This document shows, one piece after another, positions 1,749 to 38,956 of a stretch of 38,956 bases of DNA. Numbering within the stretch: position 1 is the stretch's first letter; each line of letters begins with the position of its first letter. Source of the stretch: a virus; the IMG/VR virus record IMGVR_UViG_3300023171_000026, positions 1 through 38,956 of that record; one strand, written 5' to 3'. The notes below the pieces were generated by a model. It was not told the DNA's origin. It ran no database searches and saw only the letters and a program-made list of their open reading frames with translations. Both the position numbers and the translations under genes were made by a program.

Positions 1749-2648
1749 CTAGATACCCCAGGCAGTATCGCTATTATCGGTTATCGTTGGAGGATTTGCC
1801 CAAGACCCACTATTATTGTCTAGTTGCATTAACTTAATAGCATTCTCAGAGTCACGAAGAGCGCTCGAGTAGTAAGGGTTTCGAGCAGCACGGAACTGAT
1901 TCGCGAGCATACGGTGAACGATAAAGTAAGGGTTCCTCATTTCTGTCGTAGAAAGACCAGTCGTAAATAGAGTTGGAGCTTTGTAGTAATCGTACTCAAT
2001 AAACATACCCGCCAGTGCATCTTGTGGTGCAGGGTTGAGGTGAAGTTTATAGCCTCGGTAAATAATTTGATAGGTCGAAGAAGCAACCGTCTGGGTCACA
2101 CTAACCTCGAGAGTTGTGGCGTTTGTGAAAGCCGTAATTGTTGCAGACTCACCTGTATCAAACTGGAACTGCATTCCAACCATGGTCGCTGTCCAGGTTG
2201 TCCCTACACCTGTCACTGTAGTCCCCGTCTGAGAAGCAGTGCCAGCGTTATAGTAGATAGGGCTTGAGGTGAAGTATGCGTAGGTTGAGTTATCAGTTCT
2301 AAACTGAGCTTCGTGCGGCTCGATAATAGGATAGATTTGTTGGGTAGCACCAGTAGGATTTAGGACACGGATTGCCCCACCAGCCTCTTTAAAGTTAATT
2401 GGCGCATTATAAATAGACTGGCCAAGTACAATAGTCTGGTCACCAGACCCATCAGTACGGTTAGTGTCAAATAGCTCGTTCCAGTATGTGGCGTCATAGT
2501 TAGCCCAGTAATTAATAGCCTCGTTAGCAAGGCGCATGCCAACTAAATATTCGTCGTCTGTTTCTCCTGGCACATCGTAGTCTGCACGGAACTGACTGTA
2601 GTAAGCCGTGAAAATCTCTGAGTAGGTCATTGATTGTGTGTTTGCCAT
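1749..2648 (-). CDS. Head-tail connector / adaptor-like protein
   Basis: 299 aa. The N-terminal 60 residues are helical and aromatic-rich (YWANYDATYWNELF), typical of podovirus head-tail adaptors that dock on the portal. Residues about 134-195 form a beta module with the common phage pattern of a GTTW turn followed by a VGM..QF...G strand. The C-terminal part is helical again. It sits between the large internal protein and the nozzle protein, separated from the latter by two bases, matching the T7 gp11/gp12 order. The role is inferred from context and composition. The ribosome site is weak (AAGG about 12 bases upstream of ATG). Confidence 0.55.
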   Translation of the reverse strand: MANTQSMTYSEIFTAYYSQFRADYDVPGETDDEYLVGMRLANEAINYWANYDATYWNELFDTNRTDGSGDQTIVLGQSIYNAPINFKEAGGAIRVLNPTGATQQIYPIIEPHEAQFRTDNSTYAYFTSSPIYYNAGTASQTGTTVTGVGTTWTATMVGMQFQFDTGESATITAFTNATTLEVSVTQTVASSTYQIIYRGYKLHLNPAPQDALAGMFIEYDYYKAPTLFTTGLSTTEMRNPYFIVHRMLANQFRAARNPYYSSALRDSENAIKLMQLDNNSGSWANPPTITDNSDTAWGI

Positions 2649-2679
2649 GTTTGTATTTACCTTTTTCTTTAGTTTAACA

Positions 2680-5600
2680 CTATGTCAAGCTTTTCTTAAT
2701 ACTAACTTTTGGCTTACTTTTACCTTGGCTAGAGACTTTGTACTTACCAAGCTTTGCAGCAACAGCCTTGCTCTTCTGCACAGAAGGTACATCTCCTCCC
2801 GCATTGATACTGACGGCATACTTATAGGCGTCTGCGGTTGGGTTCCCGCTCTTACCACTTCCTGACTTGCTGGCTTCTTCTTCAAGAGGCTTAAGCCCGA
2901 TGGCAGCACGCTCTGAGTTAGTGAAGCCATCGCTTGACTCCCAGTATGCCAAAACATCTGGGTTTGCACGTAGGAAACGAGAGCGGTCACCTGTCCCACC
3001 TTGTAACGTATAGTAAAAGTCTAACTTAGATTGTAGCTCAGGAGTTGGTGATGGCTTCTTCGCTCCGCTGAACGTCTTAGGGTCGGTATCAGAGGCGGTG
3101 TTATCTTTCTTTATTGAGTCGTAAAAACCATTCTCTGCCTCGCGGAAGCGGTCATACCATGGTTCATCAAGGCCAAGTGAAGTAAAGAGTGAGTTGCCAT
3201 CACGGTCATAGGTCTGTTTACCAGCATTGAGCATTTTGGCTTGGCGGTAGGCAAGCACCTTCTGTAGTTGGTCGCCGTTAAGGTCAAATATAGGGTTTCC
3301 TACTTTGCCTTGTTCACGGTTCCACTGGTCAAGTTCTTTCTCTTTAGTGACAACCTCAGGGTCTGAGAGGTAGATACTTGCTTTAGTAGCGCTATCAAGG
3401 ATACCAGGCTGGTCGTTCTTCTTGTGTAGCGCATCAAAGTACTGTTTGCTCTTACTGTTTGTGAAACTAGACTTAATACTATCAAGCTTCTCGTAGTACT
3501 TAGAGGTGTCAGTCTGGCCGTAACCACCGCTCACCGTATCCTTAAAAGTTTCACCCACTGTCTTTAAAGGGTTCTGGTCTTTATTCTTAACAATCTTACC
3601 TGCTAGCCCAAACTGGCTAAGAATCTTATCGACCTGTATAGGTGAAAGATTGTTCCCTGTTAGCCCTGCAAGAAACTTAGCGGCATCGCTAGTAGACTCG
3701 TAAAACTGGTCTCTCTTAGCCTGGTCCTTCATGTCTCCCTGAATAAGGTCCTTAGGGTTAAGTGGGTCGCTCTTTGGGTCCTGCCCAACAACAATTCGCC
3801 CTGTTTCAACAAATGGGTTACTGCTTCCTCGTAGTCCGCCAGTAACAAAGTCGAAAGCATTTACAGCTACAGACCCAAGACTTGTTTGGTCCTGTGCCGC
3901 TTCCTCGTTGAGCTGGTCGTAAGTGCCGCGCCAAAGTGCCTGGTTCAGCGCTCTAAACTCAGGTGAAACTGGAACCTTGATGATGCCCGACCACTGGCCT
4001 GTTTTAGGGTCCTTAGAGGCACCAGGGAGTACGATAGTGTAGTTATTATCAAGATTGTAGGTAGACTTAGAGTCAATCTGGTCTTGGTAGTACTTCTGTC
4101 CCTCTTCGCTCATCATAGAATAAGTTGTCGCTGCTACTGCTGGGCCAACTACGCCTGCTGTAATTGTAGTGAGCGCTACACCTGGATTGCGTTTAATACC
4201 CTGCAATAGCGAGCGTGTACCTGCTATAGAGGCTGAAAAGTAAGGTAGAGCCGCGTTCATCTCCTTAGCAAGCGTCGATGCGCGGATGTAGTTAGGAAGA
4301 ACGTTATTGTACGCCCAAGCGGCTTCAGTGACAGCCTGCTCGGCAGTCTTGCCTTGTTTTAAAGCCTGTTCGTAGTAAACTGTTGCGTTCCTTTCACGTG
4401 AAACACGAGACAATAATCCACCAATCTTATCAAGTGACTCAATTGCCGTCTTAGGATGTGTAAGCCCATACCCAACCTTAGTAAATATGTTCTTTTGAGC
4501 AGCGATGGCGTCAGCAGTAAGGTTAGTCTCAATCGGAATACCTGAGAACATCGTCTGGTTTGCGCCTGCAAGGTCTAACTCGCGCCGAAGTGGATTGTCA
4601 GGGAGGAAGCCCTTTACCAAACCTTTAACGGCAGTAGGACTAAATACTGTCTTAGCTCCGTACTTTGAGTTGGCGATGCTAGGCAGGATGTCGTAAAAGA
4701 CGAACGACTTGATTGGGAAAACAACGTTTGCGAAACCCGTCCAAGCAGTCTGGAAGACACGTTGTGCAGAGATAGCCCAGTTTACTAACTGACTAGCCTT
4801 TCTTGAGTCAAGGCCCTGCATAAGCTTTGCTACATCAGGGTGAACTTCAATCTTATAAGGTTGGCCATTCTCGATGCCACTAATGACCTGCTTCCCTGTA
4901 GTAGGGTCATCTTGTAGCTGGGCGATTATGTCTTTATTGATAGTCTTAGCATCGTAAAGTTTCTGTCGTTCTGCAACTAGTTCGGCACGGCTGCGAGAGT
5001 CTTTGGTGCGTGCAATCCGTTTGTCGAGGTCAGCAATTGCAGCGTTAATCTCTTTTTGTGTACTTCTTACCTCTTTGCGGCCTTCTTTATTGCCTGCGCC
5101 AACTATTAACTTGGCGTTCTTTTCTTCACCAGATAGCACGCGCTTGGCATAAATATTTGCTGCTTCTGCCTGGTTGATTTGCTTCTCGGTTGTCTTAGCA
5201 CGATTGATAATGGCATCGAACGTATCGTCGATAGCAAGGTCACTGTTTGCTTGTAAGTCTTGTACAATACGTTGGCGTCCAATTGAGCCGAGAGAACGGC
5301 CGCTTATTTCAGGGCGTTCAAGGAACTGTGACGTAGCACGTTGAATAGAAGCGTAGTCGTCACCGTAGTACTTCTTAAGGAAGTCAGCATCTTCTTTCTT
5401 TACAATACCAGCTTTTACTGCTCTGTCAAGGTCTTTGTTAGCTTGTGCTGCAATCGTCTGACGGTTTATCACATAGTTAGGCTTCGACGCTTCTTGACTC
5501 GCCACGGCAGCTCTTAACTCGTCGTCTGAGAATTGAGGAAGGAGTTGCTTGCTTCCCTTACTGTTTTCACGAATACGTAGGTCACGACGCATAGTAAGGT

Positions 5601-10615: not shown

Positions 10616-10870
10616 TTAAACCCAGCGTAGCGCGCGTCTTACCTGTTCTGCGTCCAGTATGACTTCGTAGTCATCGACTGTCAATTTAAAAATAAGGTCT
10701 CTCGTCGCATCATCGTTTAAGTCTTTGTAGATTTTTACTCTATGCTGTAGCGATAAGTCTCTGATGTCGTAGTGCATACTGTCTCGCTGGTCGAACGTTT
10801 TATCGTTCTCACGGGTAGTACTCATGTCCTTTTTGCTTAGTTCACCAGGGGAGTACTTAAGCTTTCTCAT
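10616..10870 (-). CDS. Hypothetical small protein (84 aa)
   Basis: The start is placed at ATG 10870 (MRKLKYSPGEL), which overlaps the 3' end of the GroES-like gene by 14 bases. A TTG two codons upstream is less likely. The protein is highly charged and helical (TRENDKTFDQRDSMHYDIRD), with no motif I recognise. Its overlap with the co-chaperonin gene means the two are co-translated, so it could be a virion or assembly factor. Confidence 0.5.
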   Translation of the reverse strand: MRKLKYSPGELSKKDMSTTRENDKTFDQRDSMHYDIRDLSLQHRVKIYKDLNDDATRDLIFKLTVDDYEVILDAEQVRRALRWV

Positions 10871-11114
10871 CGTCAAGTACTCCGTAAATATGAGACTCCT
10901 TACAGAGACGGAGATTGTCTTCTAAGATGACAGAAGAGTACCGCTCAAACTGCACACGTGTTCCAGCCTTTAGACCAACGACCTGAGGCCCTACCTCAAC
11001 AATAGTTCCTGTGGGGGGAAGTGACTTCCACTCCTCGACGACAAAGAGTGCACCTTGTTTTTCCTTTTCGTCATCTACTTCAATGAGGACGAAATCCTGT
11101 AATGGTTTTAACAT
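10857..11114 (-). CDS. groES: GroES-like co-chaperonin (gp31-like)
   Basis: 85 aa, close to the 95 aa of GroES. The N-terminus MLKPLQDFVLIEVDDE matches the GroES opening (xxxPLxDRVxV). It continues with QGALFVVEEWKSLPPTG, equivalent to the mobile loop that docks on GroEL (LFV in place of the usual IVL tripeptide). Then TGTIVEVGPQVVGLKAGTRVQF matches the GxVxAVGxG...VKxGDxVxF beta core, and ESHIYGVLDD matches ExDILAxxE at the end. Its partner is probably the phage GroEL at 19274-20755, or the host chaperonin as with T4 gp31. A possible attenuator hairpin lies just upstream. Confidence 0.75.
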   Translation of the reverse strand: MLKPLQDFVLIEVDDEKEKQGALFVVEEWKSLPPTGTIVEVGPQVVGLKAGTRVQFERYSSVILEDNLRLCKESHIYGVLDDEKA

Positions 11115-19273: not shown

Positions 19274-20755
19274 TTACATTTTAAGTAACGCATCAATCTG
19301 TTGTTGGGTCATCTCCTTCTCATTAATTGAGTCACCGACAGTCAGGAACGTACCTGCTACCGCGAAGGCATTAATCACGACATCCTTGGTAATAATCGCC
19401 GCATCCATAATACCTTCGTCCTGTAAGAAGACTTCCCGTCCTGTCATCACGTTAATACCGTGGCCTAGATGATGGTCAAAACGGTATTTTTTAATGCCAG
19501 CATTTCTCAGTAGCTGGAAGTATGGAGCTTTTAAAGCTTTATCAACTGCTCTGTTGCCAGTCGGTATACTTGCAAGCATTGTCCCCGCACCAGGTACAAC
19601 ACCACCCTTCAAAGCCGCTCGTGCCGCACCAATCGCGTCATCTACTCTGTCTTTGCGCTCTTTGACCTGAGTTTCGTTCACCCCACCAACAATAATATGG
19701 CCTATTTTTCCTGTAAGAAGGGAGATTCTCTCAGCTTCTGTCTTTTCGTCTAACGTCGCACAATATTGCGTCGTGTCATTTCCACCTATAATGAGCGTCT
19801 CAGACTCTTTTACAATGGCTTTCTCTGCCTGACCAACGTTGTCGAGATTCGGTGCATCATTTGAAGTACGGGGGTTATATATCTGGGCGCCTGTTACTGC
19901 CTCTAAGTCCTTTAAGTAGTCAAATCCAAGTGGATTCTTCACAAAGGTTGCATTTACAGGTGACTTGGCCTTAGTGAGAAGAAGCGTATTGAGGATTTCC
20001 TGGTCTATATCATCACCTATAATGAGGATATTATTGTGGTCCGCCTCAACACACTCATTAATGAACTGAGCGTACTGCTTCAAGTTCTCAACTCGCCCAT
20101 TAACGAGGAGGATAAGCGGGTCCCTGAGTACCCCAGCTTTGTCTTTGGCATCAGTAATGAAGAGCTTAGAGGTGAATCCTCCATAAAACAGGTAGCCATC
20201 TACTAATTCAGCTGATGTTTCCACCCCAATCTGTGTCTCTACCGTAATCGCCCCCTTATAGCCTGTCCCTACGACCATTTCAGTGACCACTCTCGCAATG
20301 TCATCGTCTTTAGCACTTGTTCGTGTCACATCGTACACAGCTTCCTTGGTGTGTGCAATCTTCGTTGTATGTACGTCAATAACGTCGAGTATCTTAGGCA
20401 CGAGAGCATCTAACTCAGTTCTAAGAGCCATAGGGTTCGTAAAGAGACTCTTGAATCTCAGCCTTTTAATAAGTGAGTGTGCGAGTACGACAACAGTTGT
20501 GCTTCCATCCTCATCACCGTTCATCCCTTTCCCACCATCTCTCAGTAACTCAATACCATTTTGCACTGCCTTGTTTTCGTGCCAGGCAGCCTTGGCGACG
20601 CTAATCCCGTCGTGTGTGACGTTCACCTGTCCGTATTTATTCCTAATAAGAACATCTCGCCCTTTCGGCCCCATAGTAGAGGCAACTTTGTCATGTAAGA
20701 GTGATGCTCCCCTGTAAAGAGAGACTTGTGTGTTTATTTTACTCACTAACCCCAT
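19274..20755 (-). CDS. groEL: GroEL-like chaperonin (Cpn60)
   Basis: 493 aa, about 55 shorter than E. coli GroEL. The ATP site is present: STMGPKGRDV at 26-35 (GroEL TLGPKGRNV), HDGISVAK with D49 (GroEL D52), DGSTTVVV with D83 (D87), and RVDDAIGAARAAL with D373 (the catalytic D398). GGVVPGAG at 384-391 also matches. An apical domain lies between about 180 and 340 (LVDGYLFYGGF for EGMQFDRGYLS). The C-terminal Gly-Gly-Met tail is missing. The gene sits between the terminase genes with its own promoter, so it probably folds virion proteins. A GroES-like partner is encoded at 10857-11114. Confidence 0.92.
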   Translation of the reverse strand: MGLVSKINTQVSLYRGASLLHDKVASTMGPKGRDVLIRNKYGQVNVTHDGISVAKAAWHENKAVQNGIELLRDGGKGMNGDEDGSTTVVVLAHSLIKRLRFKSLFTNPMALRTELDALVPKILDVIDVHTTKIAHTKEAVYDVTRTSAKDDDIARVVTEMVVGTGYKGAITVETQIGVETSAELVDGYLFYGGFTSKLFITDAKDKAGVLRDPLILLVNGRVENLKQYAQFINECVEADHNNILIIGDDIDQEILNTLLLTKAKSPVNATFVKNPLGFDYLKDLEAVTGAQIYNPRTSNDAPNLDNVGQAEKAIVKESETLIIGGNDTTQYCATLDEKTEAERISLLTGKIGHIIVGGVNETQVKERKDRVDDAIGAARAALKGGVVPGAGTMLASIPTGNRAVDKALKAPYFQLLRNAGIKKYRFDHHLGHGINVMTGREVFLQDEGIMDAAIITKDVVINAFAVAGTFLTVGDSINEKEMTQQQIDALLKM

Positions 20756-24203: not shown

Positions 24204-24656
24204 GTGACCCTAGTATCCGAGAATCCAATAGAGTATAGCGCGTGGAGTCATATGAAGACACGCTGTTATAACTCTAACTATAACCAGTCAGAATACTATT
24301 CTGGTAGAGGCATTGTCGTTTGTGATAGGTGGAGGAATAGTTTTGCCAATTTTTTTGAAGATATGGGCAAGCGACCAGAAGGATTTAGCCTGGACAGAAT
24401 CGACAATGACGGGAACTATGAGCCTGGTAATTGCAGGTGGGCTGACCGTACAACCCAAGGGAGAAATAGAAGGAAATTCAAAAACAATACGTCAGGCATT
24501 ACGGGAGTTTCCTATGACGCATCGAACGGTTACTGGAAGTCACACATCGCCGTATATAAAAATAAGATACAGCTCGGTAGCTTCAAAACAAAAGAAGAGG
24601 CCATAGAATCAAGAAAAGCGGCAGAGAAACAGTATTTTAGAGTACCTAACACCTAA
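24204..24656 (+). CDS. HNH homing endonuclease with AP2-like DNA-binding domain
   Basis: 150 aa. GTG start at 24204 with GAGAGGAG 7 bases upstream. Residues 10-80 form an HNH-type nuclease: YSAWSHMKTRCYN, GRGIVVCDRW, then DMGKRPEGFSLDRIDNDGNY and PGNCRWADRTTQGRN. Residues 90-145 fit an AP2-like domain (SGITGVSYD...WKSHIAVYKNKIQLGSFKTK). This two-domain layout is typical of free-standing phage homing endonucleases. It sits directly behind the structured RNA, so it may have entered with, or target, that region. Confidence 0.85.
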   Translation: MTLVSENPIEYSAWSHMKTRCYNSNYNQSEYYSGRGIVVCDRWRNSFANFFEDMGKRPEGFSLDRIDNDGNYEPGNCRWADRTTQGRNRRKFKNNTSGITGVSYDASNGYWKSHIAVYKNKIQLGSFKTKEEAIESRKAAEKQYFRVPNT

Positions 24657-36088: not shown

Positions 36089-37945
36089 TTATAAATATGC
36101 GTTTTCTGCAAATATCTCGTTTGGTGCTACTGACCCATCTGTACCTGCAGCTGTAGTGGCGCCAAGAGTGTACATGACAAATGCTGCCTGGGCGGTCAGG
36201 GTATAGTCGCTGGTTACGTAAGATGTTAAGTCCATTTCTACTGCGGCCGATGACTTAATGCGGGAAACTAGACTTGTAACTGCAAAACCAGCAGTCGCAG
36301 ATAGTCCTGACAAAGAAGTAGGTGACACGGCAAAGTAAACGTTGGTAGTAGAGGCGTTATAAATACTTCCACACTGCCAGCCAACTCTCCATCCACCAAT
36401 TGGGACGGTCAGCAAGAAGCTACTAGACAAGAAGGTGCCATAGGTTGCATTGCTTGAGGTGGCACCCCCGGGGTGCTTTGTAGATATTAACCACTTAGTT
36501 TTATTAGATGGGAAGCCATACGGAGCTTTGGCACTTGAGTACCTAGTCGCAGTCACGCCGCCACTAGTAGGAATTGTGTTGCCTTCTGGTACCTGGACCG
36601 TAACTGTAGTATTGGTAGCAAACGTAGCTGCCTGAACAATACCGTAGTCGAGTGTCGAGCTAACCAAACCGCTTGCTTGAAGGCCAAATGGCGAGTCGGC
36701 GTTTGTTGCTACGGCAGACCCATTAGCTGTGAGGTTATTTGCGTTGGTCGTATTAAGGTCATTGATTGAGTTATCGAATGAATAGGCCGAAACAATGCTG
36801 TGTGTAGAAATCAGAGACGCAGTGAGACCTTGAGAGATGAGCGTACGGACGTTTGATTGGGTAATTTTGGCGCTAGCCACAAAAGCCTGAGAAATCTTCC
36901 CTGCGAATGGCACAGTGCCCCCGTTTTGTGAGCCAACCTCTAAGTTCCCTGCTTGGATTAGGGCTGTCGGGTTAGTTCCTGAGCGTAGAGCCTGAGCTGG
37001 AATATCCACGCCATCTAGCATGATATAGCTAGTAGTAGGTGTTGCCGTAAAGGCTGACATGTCAAGCTGAGCAGCAATATGAACCCACCTATTGAGAGGA
37101 ACAGACTGATAGCTCGTCACGTTACTTTGGTTGGCATTACTGGCGTTATAGCCGCGGAACACTATTTGTCCTGTTGAAATAATGTCTAGTATCCAGCCAC
37201 TAGTCCCATTGTATCGAGACATTATTGTACCGTTGGCGTAGCTGGTCAATTTTACCCAGGCTCCAGCAGCAAAGTCGTCGGTAAATGTCATGCCAGCTGG
37301 AGAGGTCTTGTTAAAATACTGAGTCGTGCCGTTGAGCGATGTACATTGTGTCGGGGCTGCTACTGTGCGAGTAGTGCTAAAGCGAGTACCTGGGTTAAGA
37401 GACCCTGTAAGGTCTGTGCCGTTAAATACAAGGTCGTAAGAATGATTCCCGTTGTAGGTGACTGTGTTTGGGGCGGTAGAAGCTGTCCAGTCGGCAGAAG
37501 GAGTTTGTGAGCCCACGGTGAGAGTTGTAACTGTCAGGGCTGTTATTGTTCCAGTCGGAGCAGTGACAGAATCGGCCGTGATAGCGCTGTGAGTACCGTC
37601 TAGCTTGTGTTGGACGCGTATACCTTTACTCATCATAGAGATGTGGGTAGCAGTAGCATAGTCTACAACTGTTGCACCAAGAGCGTGAGTCTGATTTGTT
37701 CCAGCTGTCCAAACAACACTAGTAACCTGGACGCCAGAGGTATCAATGATGCCTGTAAACGTTTGTTTCTTCGTTGCGTCGGTTGGGTCGATAACGAATA
37801 CGGCAGGCTCACCGTTAGTGTACCCAGATACAGAAGCGAGCTGTACGGTAGTTGCTCCAGATGCTACAGAACCAGCAGTCGTTGTAGTAAAACCATTTTG
37901 GGCTCTTGGAAAGTGATTTGTGACGCTTCCGACGTTCGTTGCCAT
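36089..37945 (-). CDS. Tail fibre / receptor-binding protein with LamG-like domain
   Basis: 618 aa. The N-terminal 130 residues (HFPRAQNGFTTTTAGSVASG; TNQTHALGATVVDYATATH then MMSKGIRVQHKLDGTHS) match a tail-attachment module I know from CPR-like phage fibres. Residues about 190-380 fit a concanavalin/LamG fold (NGTTQYFNKTSPAGMTFTDD, FAAGAWVKLTSY, RWVHIAAQLDM, DIPAQALRSG). The C-terminus is a beta-rich knob. A LamG unit commonly binds glycans or surface proteins. It would sit at the tail tip and select the host. Confidence 0.65.
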   Translation of the reverse strand: MATNVGSVTNHFPRAQNGFTTTTAGSVASGATTVQLASVSGYTNGEPAVFVIDPTDATKKQTFTGIIDTSGVQVTSVVWTAGTNQTHALGATVVDYATATHISMMSKGIRVQHKLDGTHSAITADSVTAPTGTITALTVTTLTVGSQTPSADWTASTAPNTVTYNGNHSYDLVFNGTDLTGSLNPGTRFSTTRTVAAPTQCTSLNGTTQYFNKTSPAGMTFTDDFAAGAWVKLTSYANGTIMSRYNGTSGWILDIISTGQIVFRGYNASNANQSNVTSYQSVPLNRWVHIAAQLDMSAFTATPTTSYIMLDGVDIPAQALRSGTNPTALIQAGNLEVGSQNGGTVPFAGKISQAFVASAKITQSNVRTLISQGLTASLISTHSIVSAYSFDNSINDLNTTNANNLTANGSAVATNADSPFGLQASGLVSSTLDYGIVQAATFATNTTVTVQVPEGNTIPTSGGVTATRYSSAKAPYGFPSNKTKWLISTKHPGGATSSNATYGTFLSSSFLLTVPIGGWRVGWQCGSIYNASTTNVYFAVSPTSLSGLSATAGFAVTSLVSRIKSSAAVEMDLTSYVTSDYTLTAQAAFVMYTLGATTAAGTDGSVAPNEIFAENAYL

Positions 37946-37987
37946 TGTTTTTGTTTTCCTGTTCTTTTAGTTTAATAATACCACAAA

Positions 37988-38591
37988 TTATGACCTGTCA
38001 AGACGCCAAATTCTGAAATCTATAATCAATGTTTCTCTGTAAGGGTCTACCTTTAGAGTTAAGTCCTCTCGCGTGATATTCCAGTGTCCTTTGTTTGTCT
38101 CTACGACTTGTTGCTGCTTTTGCACACGCTCGACAGCTTCGCCTGTTTTTCCCGACGATAGTATTCTCCTTCGTAAACTCATGCCCATTCTTGCAGTGAG
38201 TCTTTTTAAGGTTCTCGGCACTAACTCCTACTCCTCGTGCATTGTTTACCCATTGAGTAACAGGCTCCAGATGGTCAGGGTTGATACAAGCCCTATTCCT
38301 ACACAAATGGTCTACTACTAACTCAGACGATATTACGCCTCTATACAGTTGATAGTACAAACGATGAGCCGTTAAGGTGTGACCTGCGAATTTAACTTTT
38401 CCGTAGCCACCGACATTTAGACTTAAATTCCATACCCAACACCCTGTTGGCGAAACTGTATAGTTACTGTCCATCCTGTGCCTTAGTTTTAATATCTTTG
38501 CCTGTGGGTAGTTTTTTAATTCAAATCTCATATATTGAATATACCACATAACTTCCACATACTCTAGGACCTATCGAGCCTCCAAATTCTG
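37988..38591 (-). mobile_element. HNH element flanked by duplicated, recoded gene end
   Basis: CCAAATTCTG occurs at 38006-38015 and 38582-38591. Both copies continue (minus strand) into codons for RIWRLDRS and a stop, but with different synonymous codons: AGG/CGT, CTC/CTT, GAT/GAC, TCC/TCA, TAG/TAA. The copy at 37988 is probably the old gene end; the copy at 38564 restores the nozzle reading frame. Confidence 0.8.
37998..38558 (-). CDS. HNH homing endonuclease inserted at the nozzle gene's 3' end
   Basis: 186 aa from GTG 38558; starts at ATG 38531 or 38474 (with AGG upstream) are also possible. Core HNH motif: GCWVWNLSLNVGGYGKVKFA, AHRLYYQLYRG, VVDHLCRNRACINPDHLEPV. A C-terminal zinc finger follows (CKNGHEFTKENT, SCRACAKA). 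It fills nearly all of the 576 bases between two copies of the nozzle C-terminal codons and its own stop lies inside the downstream copy. It is a free-standing mobile gene; no room remains for a group I intron core. Confidence 0.88.
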   Translation of the reverse strand: MEVMWYIQYMRFELKNYPQAKILKLRHRMDSNYTVSPTGCWVWNLSLNVGGYGKVKFAGHTLTAHRLYYQLYRGVISSELVVDHLCRNRACINPDHLEPVTQWVNNARGVGVSAENLKKTHCKNGHEFTKENTIVGKNRRSCRACAKAATSRRDKQRTLEYHARGLNSKGRPLQRNIDYRFQNLAS

Positions 38592-38956
38592 GGCATTCCG
38601 CCGTTGGTACTTGTCCCCCAACTCTGAAGTGTCCTTAGTACATAGCCAGCGTCAATTGAACTGGTAGTAATGACCCACTGGATTGCGTTTAACTCACGAC
38701 CGAGGCGGAAGTATCGCTTTACCGACGACTCAGAGAAAGTGTCGATTGCTGTTGAAGTATCATCCCAGAGAGTTGTATCCCACAAGAAAGTGTCCCAACC
38801 AGTGTCGGTAAGTTGCGAGGTGACAGTAGCCGTACCCTGCGAGGTAAACCCACGGCCACGCTCGAGACCGATTAGTTCAACCAAGATTTCTCCACTTGGA
38901 TTAGAAAACTCCATTTCTGCCTGTTCAGTCCACTGAAACTCGAATCGGTTCTTTGT
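38564..38956 (-). CDS. Tail nozzle/hub-like protein (C-terminal part)
   Basis: This is the end of the 669-aa gene that begins at 1746. It is open to the right edge of the window, in the same frame as the left-edge part (2010 bases in all). The C-terminus is Trp/Thr-rich (DTFLWDTTLWDD; NAIQWVITTSSI) and ends GGMPRIWRLDRS, where the last eight codons duplicate those at 37988. Bases 38828-38956 repeat 1-129. Confidence 0.6.
   Translation of the reverse strand, partial: TKNRFEFQWTEQAEMEFSNPSGEILVELIGLERGRGFTSQGTATVTSQLTDTGWDTFLWDTTLWDDTSTAIDTFSESSVKRYFRLGRELNAIQWVITTSSIDAGYVLRTLQSWGTSTNGGMPRIWRLDRS
38828..38956. repeat. Terminal overlap, right copy
   Basis: Same sequence as bases 1-129 (base 38830 C versus T at 3). 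The mismatch changes one nozzle codon (GCT Ala here, ACT Thr at the left edge). Confidence 0.93.

Follow-up and report, generated by a model that had tools for sequence, protein, structure and literature searches.

An HNH gene between two spellings of a phage gene's last eight codons: a probable case of gene-end replacement

Entry without breaking a gene and escape from the element's own cut are two demands on a free-standing homing endonuclease gene in a compact phage genome, and introns, inteins or insertion between genes are the usual answers. The nearest precedent for the locus described here is found in mobile ORFs of fungal mitochondria that carry foreign C-termini, known from atp6 of Allomyces macrogynus and from atp6, atp9, cox2 and nad3 of Glomus sp. 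(PMC3630166), with further examples in Phlebia atp6 and cox2 (PMC4019555). Common to these ORFs and the phage case are an endonuclease near the 3' end of a gene, a diverged tail on the host gene, and a native tail that is stranded downstream and groups with close relatives. The fungal ORFs are mitochondrial and encode LAGLIDADG or GIY-YIG enzymes, whereas the phage cases involve HNH enzymes and one LAGLIDADG enzyme, have short tails of 8–17 codons, and include a mirror-image form at gene starts. Among phages, the ShiLan-type hidden insertion is likewise an HNH gene in a phage gene, a methylase, but it is in-frame and internal and lacks a restored gene end; the opening 11 residues of its frame look like the 11 that lie past the insertion, and uninvaded genes are closer to the insertion end than invaded genes are. 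The authors weighed intron and intein signatures, and the accessible part of their report makes no proposal of restoration via a recoded copy (PMC11855218). The free-standing phage homing endonucleases, T4 Seg and Mob (PMC2988022) and F-CphI (PMC6083498), likewise spread by cutting near their own site and co-convert the flanks, and their carrier must escape; the available portions of those two sources describe a duplicated gene end for none of them. The F-CphI carrier is spared by an intron, unlike the phage case here, and the free-standing T4 enzymes have a cut site apart from the insertion site. Our literature search found no phage precedent stated as a restored gene end, an absence that is weak evidence as subscription papers fell mostly outside the scope of the search. 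The logic is therefore known from fungal mitochondria, and the bacteriophage version with its start-side mirror is a variant of it.

The DNA analysed is the whole of IMG/VR virus record IMGVR_UViG_3300023171_000026 (38,956 nt; hereafter the window). The record is circularly closed by a 129-bp end repeat, positions 1–129 matching 38828–38956 with one mismatch, and the host gene (minus strand) spans the circular join as one unbroken frame of some 668 codons. The name nozzle, which the initial annotation gave to this gene, found no confirmation, there being no helpful match in Pfam, PHROG or PDB sequences. DNA and protein searches of phage records returned no match to it, the PDB sequence search with the host protein gave nothing meaningful, and a fold model built from the protein of one relative (L004) was unusable, with a mean pLDDT of 36.5. 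Relatives of the host gene are present in loci L003–L007 and L143–L149. Elsewhere in the window, a Cpn60/GroEL-type chaperonin gene lies at 19274–20755 (minus strand; PF00118, E 1e-31) and a small GroES-like gene, assigned by eye alone, at 10857–11114 (minus strand); a full chaperonin pair is unusual for a phage as small as 39 kb.

The initial annotation had reported that RIWRLDRS and a stop codon are encoded twice, with a start-to-start spacing of 576 and an HNH gene between them, and that the two copies share ten identical bases, CAGAATTTGG, after which 6 of 18 bases differ, all of them silently. Both statements were confirmed, from the sequence and by comparing the copies. The copy that now ends the host gene (copy B) reads AGA ATT TGG AGG CTC GAT AGG TCC TAG, and the copy beyond the HNH gene (copy A) reads AGA ATT TGG CGT CTT GAC AGG TCA TAA (Table 1). 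In the whole 38,956-base record, this is the sole same-strand peptide 9-mer repeat with at least 8/9 identity at a spacing of 300–1600 bp, and the chance that six random substitutions between the copies would cause zero amino-acid changes is 8e-5. Both copies carry ATT (Ile) where the relatives have other residues, and the exact left breakpoint is therefore ambiguous within the shared CAGAATTTGG. Another motif, TGTGGTAT, is present three times in the record, once no more than 16 bases past each of the two tails and once elsewhere. Judged by this motif after both stops, a pattern spotted post hoc, the acquired piece or duplication may reach beyond the stop codon.

Table 1. Positions of the duplicated gene end, the HNH gene and their neighbours in the window
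Feature	Position	Strand	Remarks
Host gene, 3' part	38564..38956	-	5' part at 1-1746 beyond the join; frame intact over the end repeat
Copy B, recoded RIWRLDRS-stop now ending the host gene	38564..38590	-	From sequence; rarer codons; unlike all HNH-less WRL relatives
TGTGGTAT, possible extended -10 promoter element	38541..38548	-	Shortly past the copy B stop; function inferred
HNH homing endonuclease gene	37998..38531	-	177 aa from ATG at 38531; longer GTG start at 38558 possible
HNH stop codon TGA	37998..38000	-	Inside copy A, in a different frame; read from sequence
Inserted 576-bp element	38015..38590	-	Recoded tail, intergenic piece and HNH gene without its own stop; ends ambiguous in CAGAATTTGG
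Copy A, the host gene's native end, now stranded	37988..38014	-	Like HNH-less relatives (TGG CGT ... GAC); the phage's common codons
TGTGGTAT, possible extended -10 of the next gene	37978..37985	-	2 bases past the copy A stop; function inferred
Next gene, laminin-G-like	36089..37945	-	PF13385, E 4e-13

The HNH gene matches HNH_3 (PF13392, E 1.5e-9) and phrog_826 (E 2.1e-43), and the catalytic domain and the zinc motif of the HNH_3 class are both present, with conserved DHLCRNRACINPDHLE and THCKNGHEF motifs. Its stop codon lies within copy A in another frame, and the HNH gene therefore overlaps the stranded tail. The inserted element was defined by the repeat spacing and by its absence in relatives. 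Its presence is sporadic, as the HNH insertion is missing at the gene end in all host-gene relatives (L003–L007, L143–L149 and L233), and in L003–L007 a gene with the same start as the laminin-G-like gene lies directly 3' of the host gene. One HNH protein searched against genome contigs gave a single match, in Sphingobium, which was a self hit. A second HNH gene of the window (24204–24656, plus strand; phrog_374) has surroundings without a gene-end duplication.

To decide which copy is native, we used an HNH-less comparison set of seven IMG/VR loci that include the host gene's end and an eighth obtained with L146 as the query. It had been predicted from the window that such relatives would run from the host gene straight into the codons of copy A, and they do: they continue into copy A-like codons (TGG CGN), never into copy B-like ones. 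The Arg of WRL is CGT or CGC in five of five distinct lineages (L143/L144, L145, L147, L148 and L149) and AGG in none, and the Asp is GAC in the two nearest of these lineages, the same as in copy A. The distinguishing codons of copy A are common in the phage (CGT 0.32, CTT 0.34, GAC 0.64, TCA 0.23), and those of copy B are less so (AGG 0.10, CTC 0.19, GAT 0.36, TCC 0.02). From the relatives' spelling and the codon usage, copy B is therefore the newcomer and copy A the native end. As in Allomyces and Glomus, the host gene of the window thus carries a non-native tail, and the native tail, which goes with the relatives, lies downstream. A search for the donor of copy B via L146 and L233 found none; AGG-CTC is present in L146, where its context differs, and absent from L233.

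We then surveyed 114 loci with related nucleases, comparing each upstream gene tail with the region around the nuclease stop, and took 2,257 mismatched cross-locus pairings as the null (maximum score 39). Four loci scored above every null pairing, L085 (81), L086 (50), the window (48) and L032 (46). Matches at L012 and L078 were marginal (39 and 34) and were left uncounted. The tail pattern has a frequency of about 3% of the surveyed loci, which suggests that most such nucleases either have no need of a restored tail or fail to keep one. At L085, an HNH gene lies within a Holliday-junction-resolvase gene (phrog_2002). The host gene is near-identical to that of L151 as far as TGACTGG and then switches sharply to foreign sequence. 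Compared with the 33 nearest HNH-less relatives, the downstream copy matches at 49–55 of 57 positions and the upstream copy at 38–41, while the upstream copy reaches 45–48 of 57 against members of a clade of this gene that is less closely related, which hints at a donor lineage for the inserted tail. Differences as exclusively silent as those at L085 arose in 0 of 200,000 random trials. At L032, the enzyme is of the LAGLIDADG family (PF00961) and sits in a gp25-like baseplate gene; the native tail is fused in frame to the enzyme and overlaps the start of the following gene, and the silent-only differences have P = 0.0017 under random substitution. Relatives match the downstream copy of L032, which marks that copy as native and the upstream one as new. 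Judged from relatives, which were compared for the window, L085 and L032, the polarity at the latter two is the same as in the window, with the downstream copy native and the upstream copy new. The relatives and this common polarity lend good support to the earlier proposal of an element that came in close to the shared bases, put an altered copy in place of the gene end and left the protein whole.

A mirror form was found at gene starts, in which the nuclease is fused to the start of a gene and the downstream gene restarts in a second spelling (L051 and L008). The head score of L051 is 50 against a null maximum of 38; a head match at L034 was discarded as a self-overlap. Among twenty HNH loci of cultured phages, a clear head duplication was present in Gordonia phage Malisha only (score 75), whose HNH is the best match to the window HNH in the phage collection. 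Malisha is 100% identical to the HNH-less phage Spooky over 2,464 bp, ending at base 83 of lysin B, and the HNH sequence follows. The Malisha HNH gene accordingly opens with 83 bases identical to the start of Spooky lysin B, and Malisha lysin B now begins with MTRVYKLRGAGEPLDGRNMLSSIPGHEV, a second spelling. In this new head, 13 of 18 same-residue codons differ synonymously from Spooky, compared with 52 of 154 over the remainder of lysin B (P = 0.002). The synonymous excess also holds over five near relatives (P = 0.0003–0.0035), and a comparable excess was seen in 0 of 28 relative–relative pairs among eight relatives. The downstream lysin B is only 84% identical to that of Spooky, which fits co-conversion of flanking donor DNA with the insertion.

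Taken together, we consider it very probable that a free-standing HNH gene was inserted some eight codons ahead of the stop of the host tail gene, with a diverged tail copy restoring the protein and the native tail left stranded and supplying the HNH stop. In such an event, the endonuclease would have made its break where the duplicated segment begins or close by, and one break end would have copied the donor tail and the HNH gene before joining or recombining with the other end. The stranded native end is reused, as a stop codon in the window, an in-frame tail in L032 and a start codon in Malisha. The differing spelling would block the enzyme from cutting its own carrier and would also lower the direct-repeat recombination that deletes the element. 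Self-sparing by a recoded tail, as the initial annotation had it, is plausible; transplant of a diverged homologous tail, as suggested by L085, is no less likely than respelling. The tail probably came from a diverged homologous gene and was possibly sharpened by selection against cutting.

A serious contender, which we rate at somewhat under even, is that the homologous segment was acquired without any self-sparing role, the HNH gene having arrived together with its flanks from a diverged phage, and the differences being ordinary lineage divergence. This would account for the inserted tail of L085 having its closest match in a less closely related clade of that gene, for the promoter-like motif apparently co-carried in the window, and for the purifying selection between the copies, which implies that both tails were functional at the time of divergence. 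However, the synonymous excess of Malisha is confined to the duplicated segment and absent from all relative pairs, and a filter against identity is to be expected, as identical segments would restore the target. The limitation of the Malisha excess to the duplicated segment is compatible with selected recoding. The spelling may have been acquired in some cases and selected in others, with L085 favouring acquisition. A simple tandem duplication in place with later drift, or an assembly chimera of two strains, is very improbable. The window, L032, L085 and L086 are indeed single metagenomic contigs, Malisha alone being an isolate genome; but drift in a useless copy would not be silent-only, as the differences in the window, L032 and L085 are at the probabilities given above, and the same architecture occurs in the Malisha isolate and with two enzyme families. 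Least probable of all is a self-splicing intron, of group I or another type, with copy A as the 3' exon, a reading that we dropped: although phage group I introns often carry HNH genes and the accessible text on ShiLan-type insertions describes a similar end resemblance (PMC11855218), Rfam gave no match on either strand at E ≤ 10, the HNH frame fills about 530 of the 576 bases and leaves no room for a catalytic core outside it, and the unspliced gene is already complete with tail and stop.

The insertion of a free-standing gene with a replacement end suggests a further route besides those named at the outset, in which the element severs the end of a gene and brings its replacement. In each case the insertion point, and so probably the target, can be read from the native piece left stranded, and this allows targets to be predicted and cleavage to be tested directly. 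Malisha and Spooky offer a cultured pair for this purpose, identical up to the insertion point and differing in the presence of the element at lysin B. More tentatively, and with the odds in our view leaning against it, phage homing endonucleases may commonly invade coding sequence as well as the gaps between genes, carrying a selectively recoded replacement of whichever end is severed and taking their own start or stop signals from the stranded piece, in which case many "intergenic" HNH genes would be eroded remnants of old insertions of this type.

Two further repetitions were noted at other loci. L009 has a tandem pair of similar HNH genes 1010 bp apart (2125–3700), and in L115 three small genes beside an HNH gene (1884, 2197 and 4012) have the short tail AIE..L.EKN in common.
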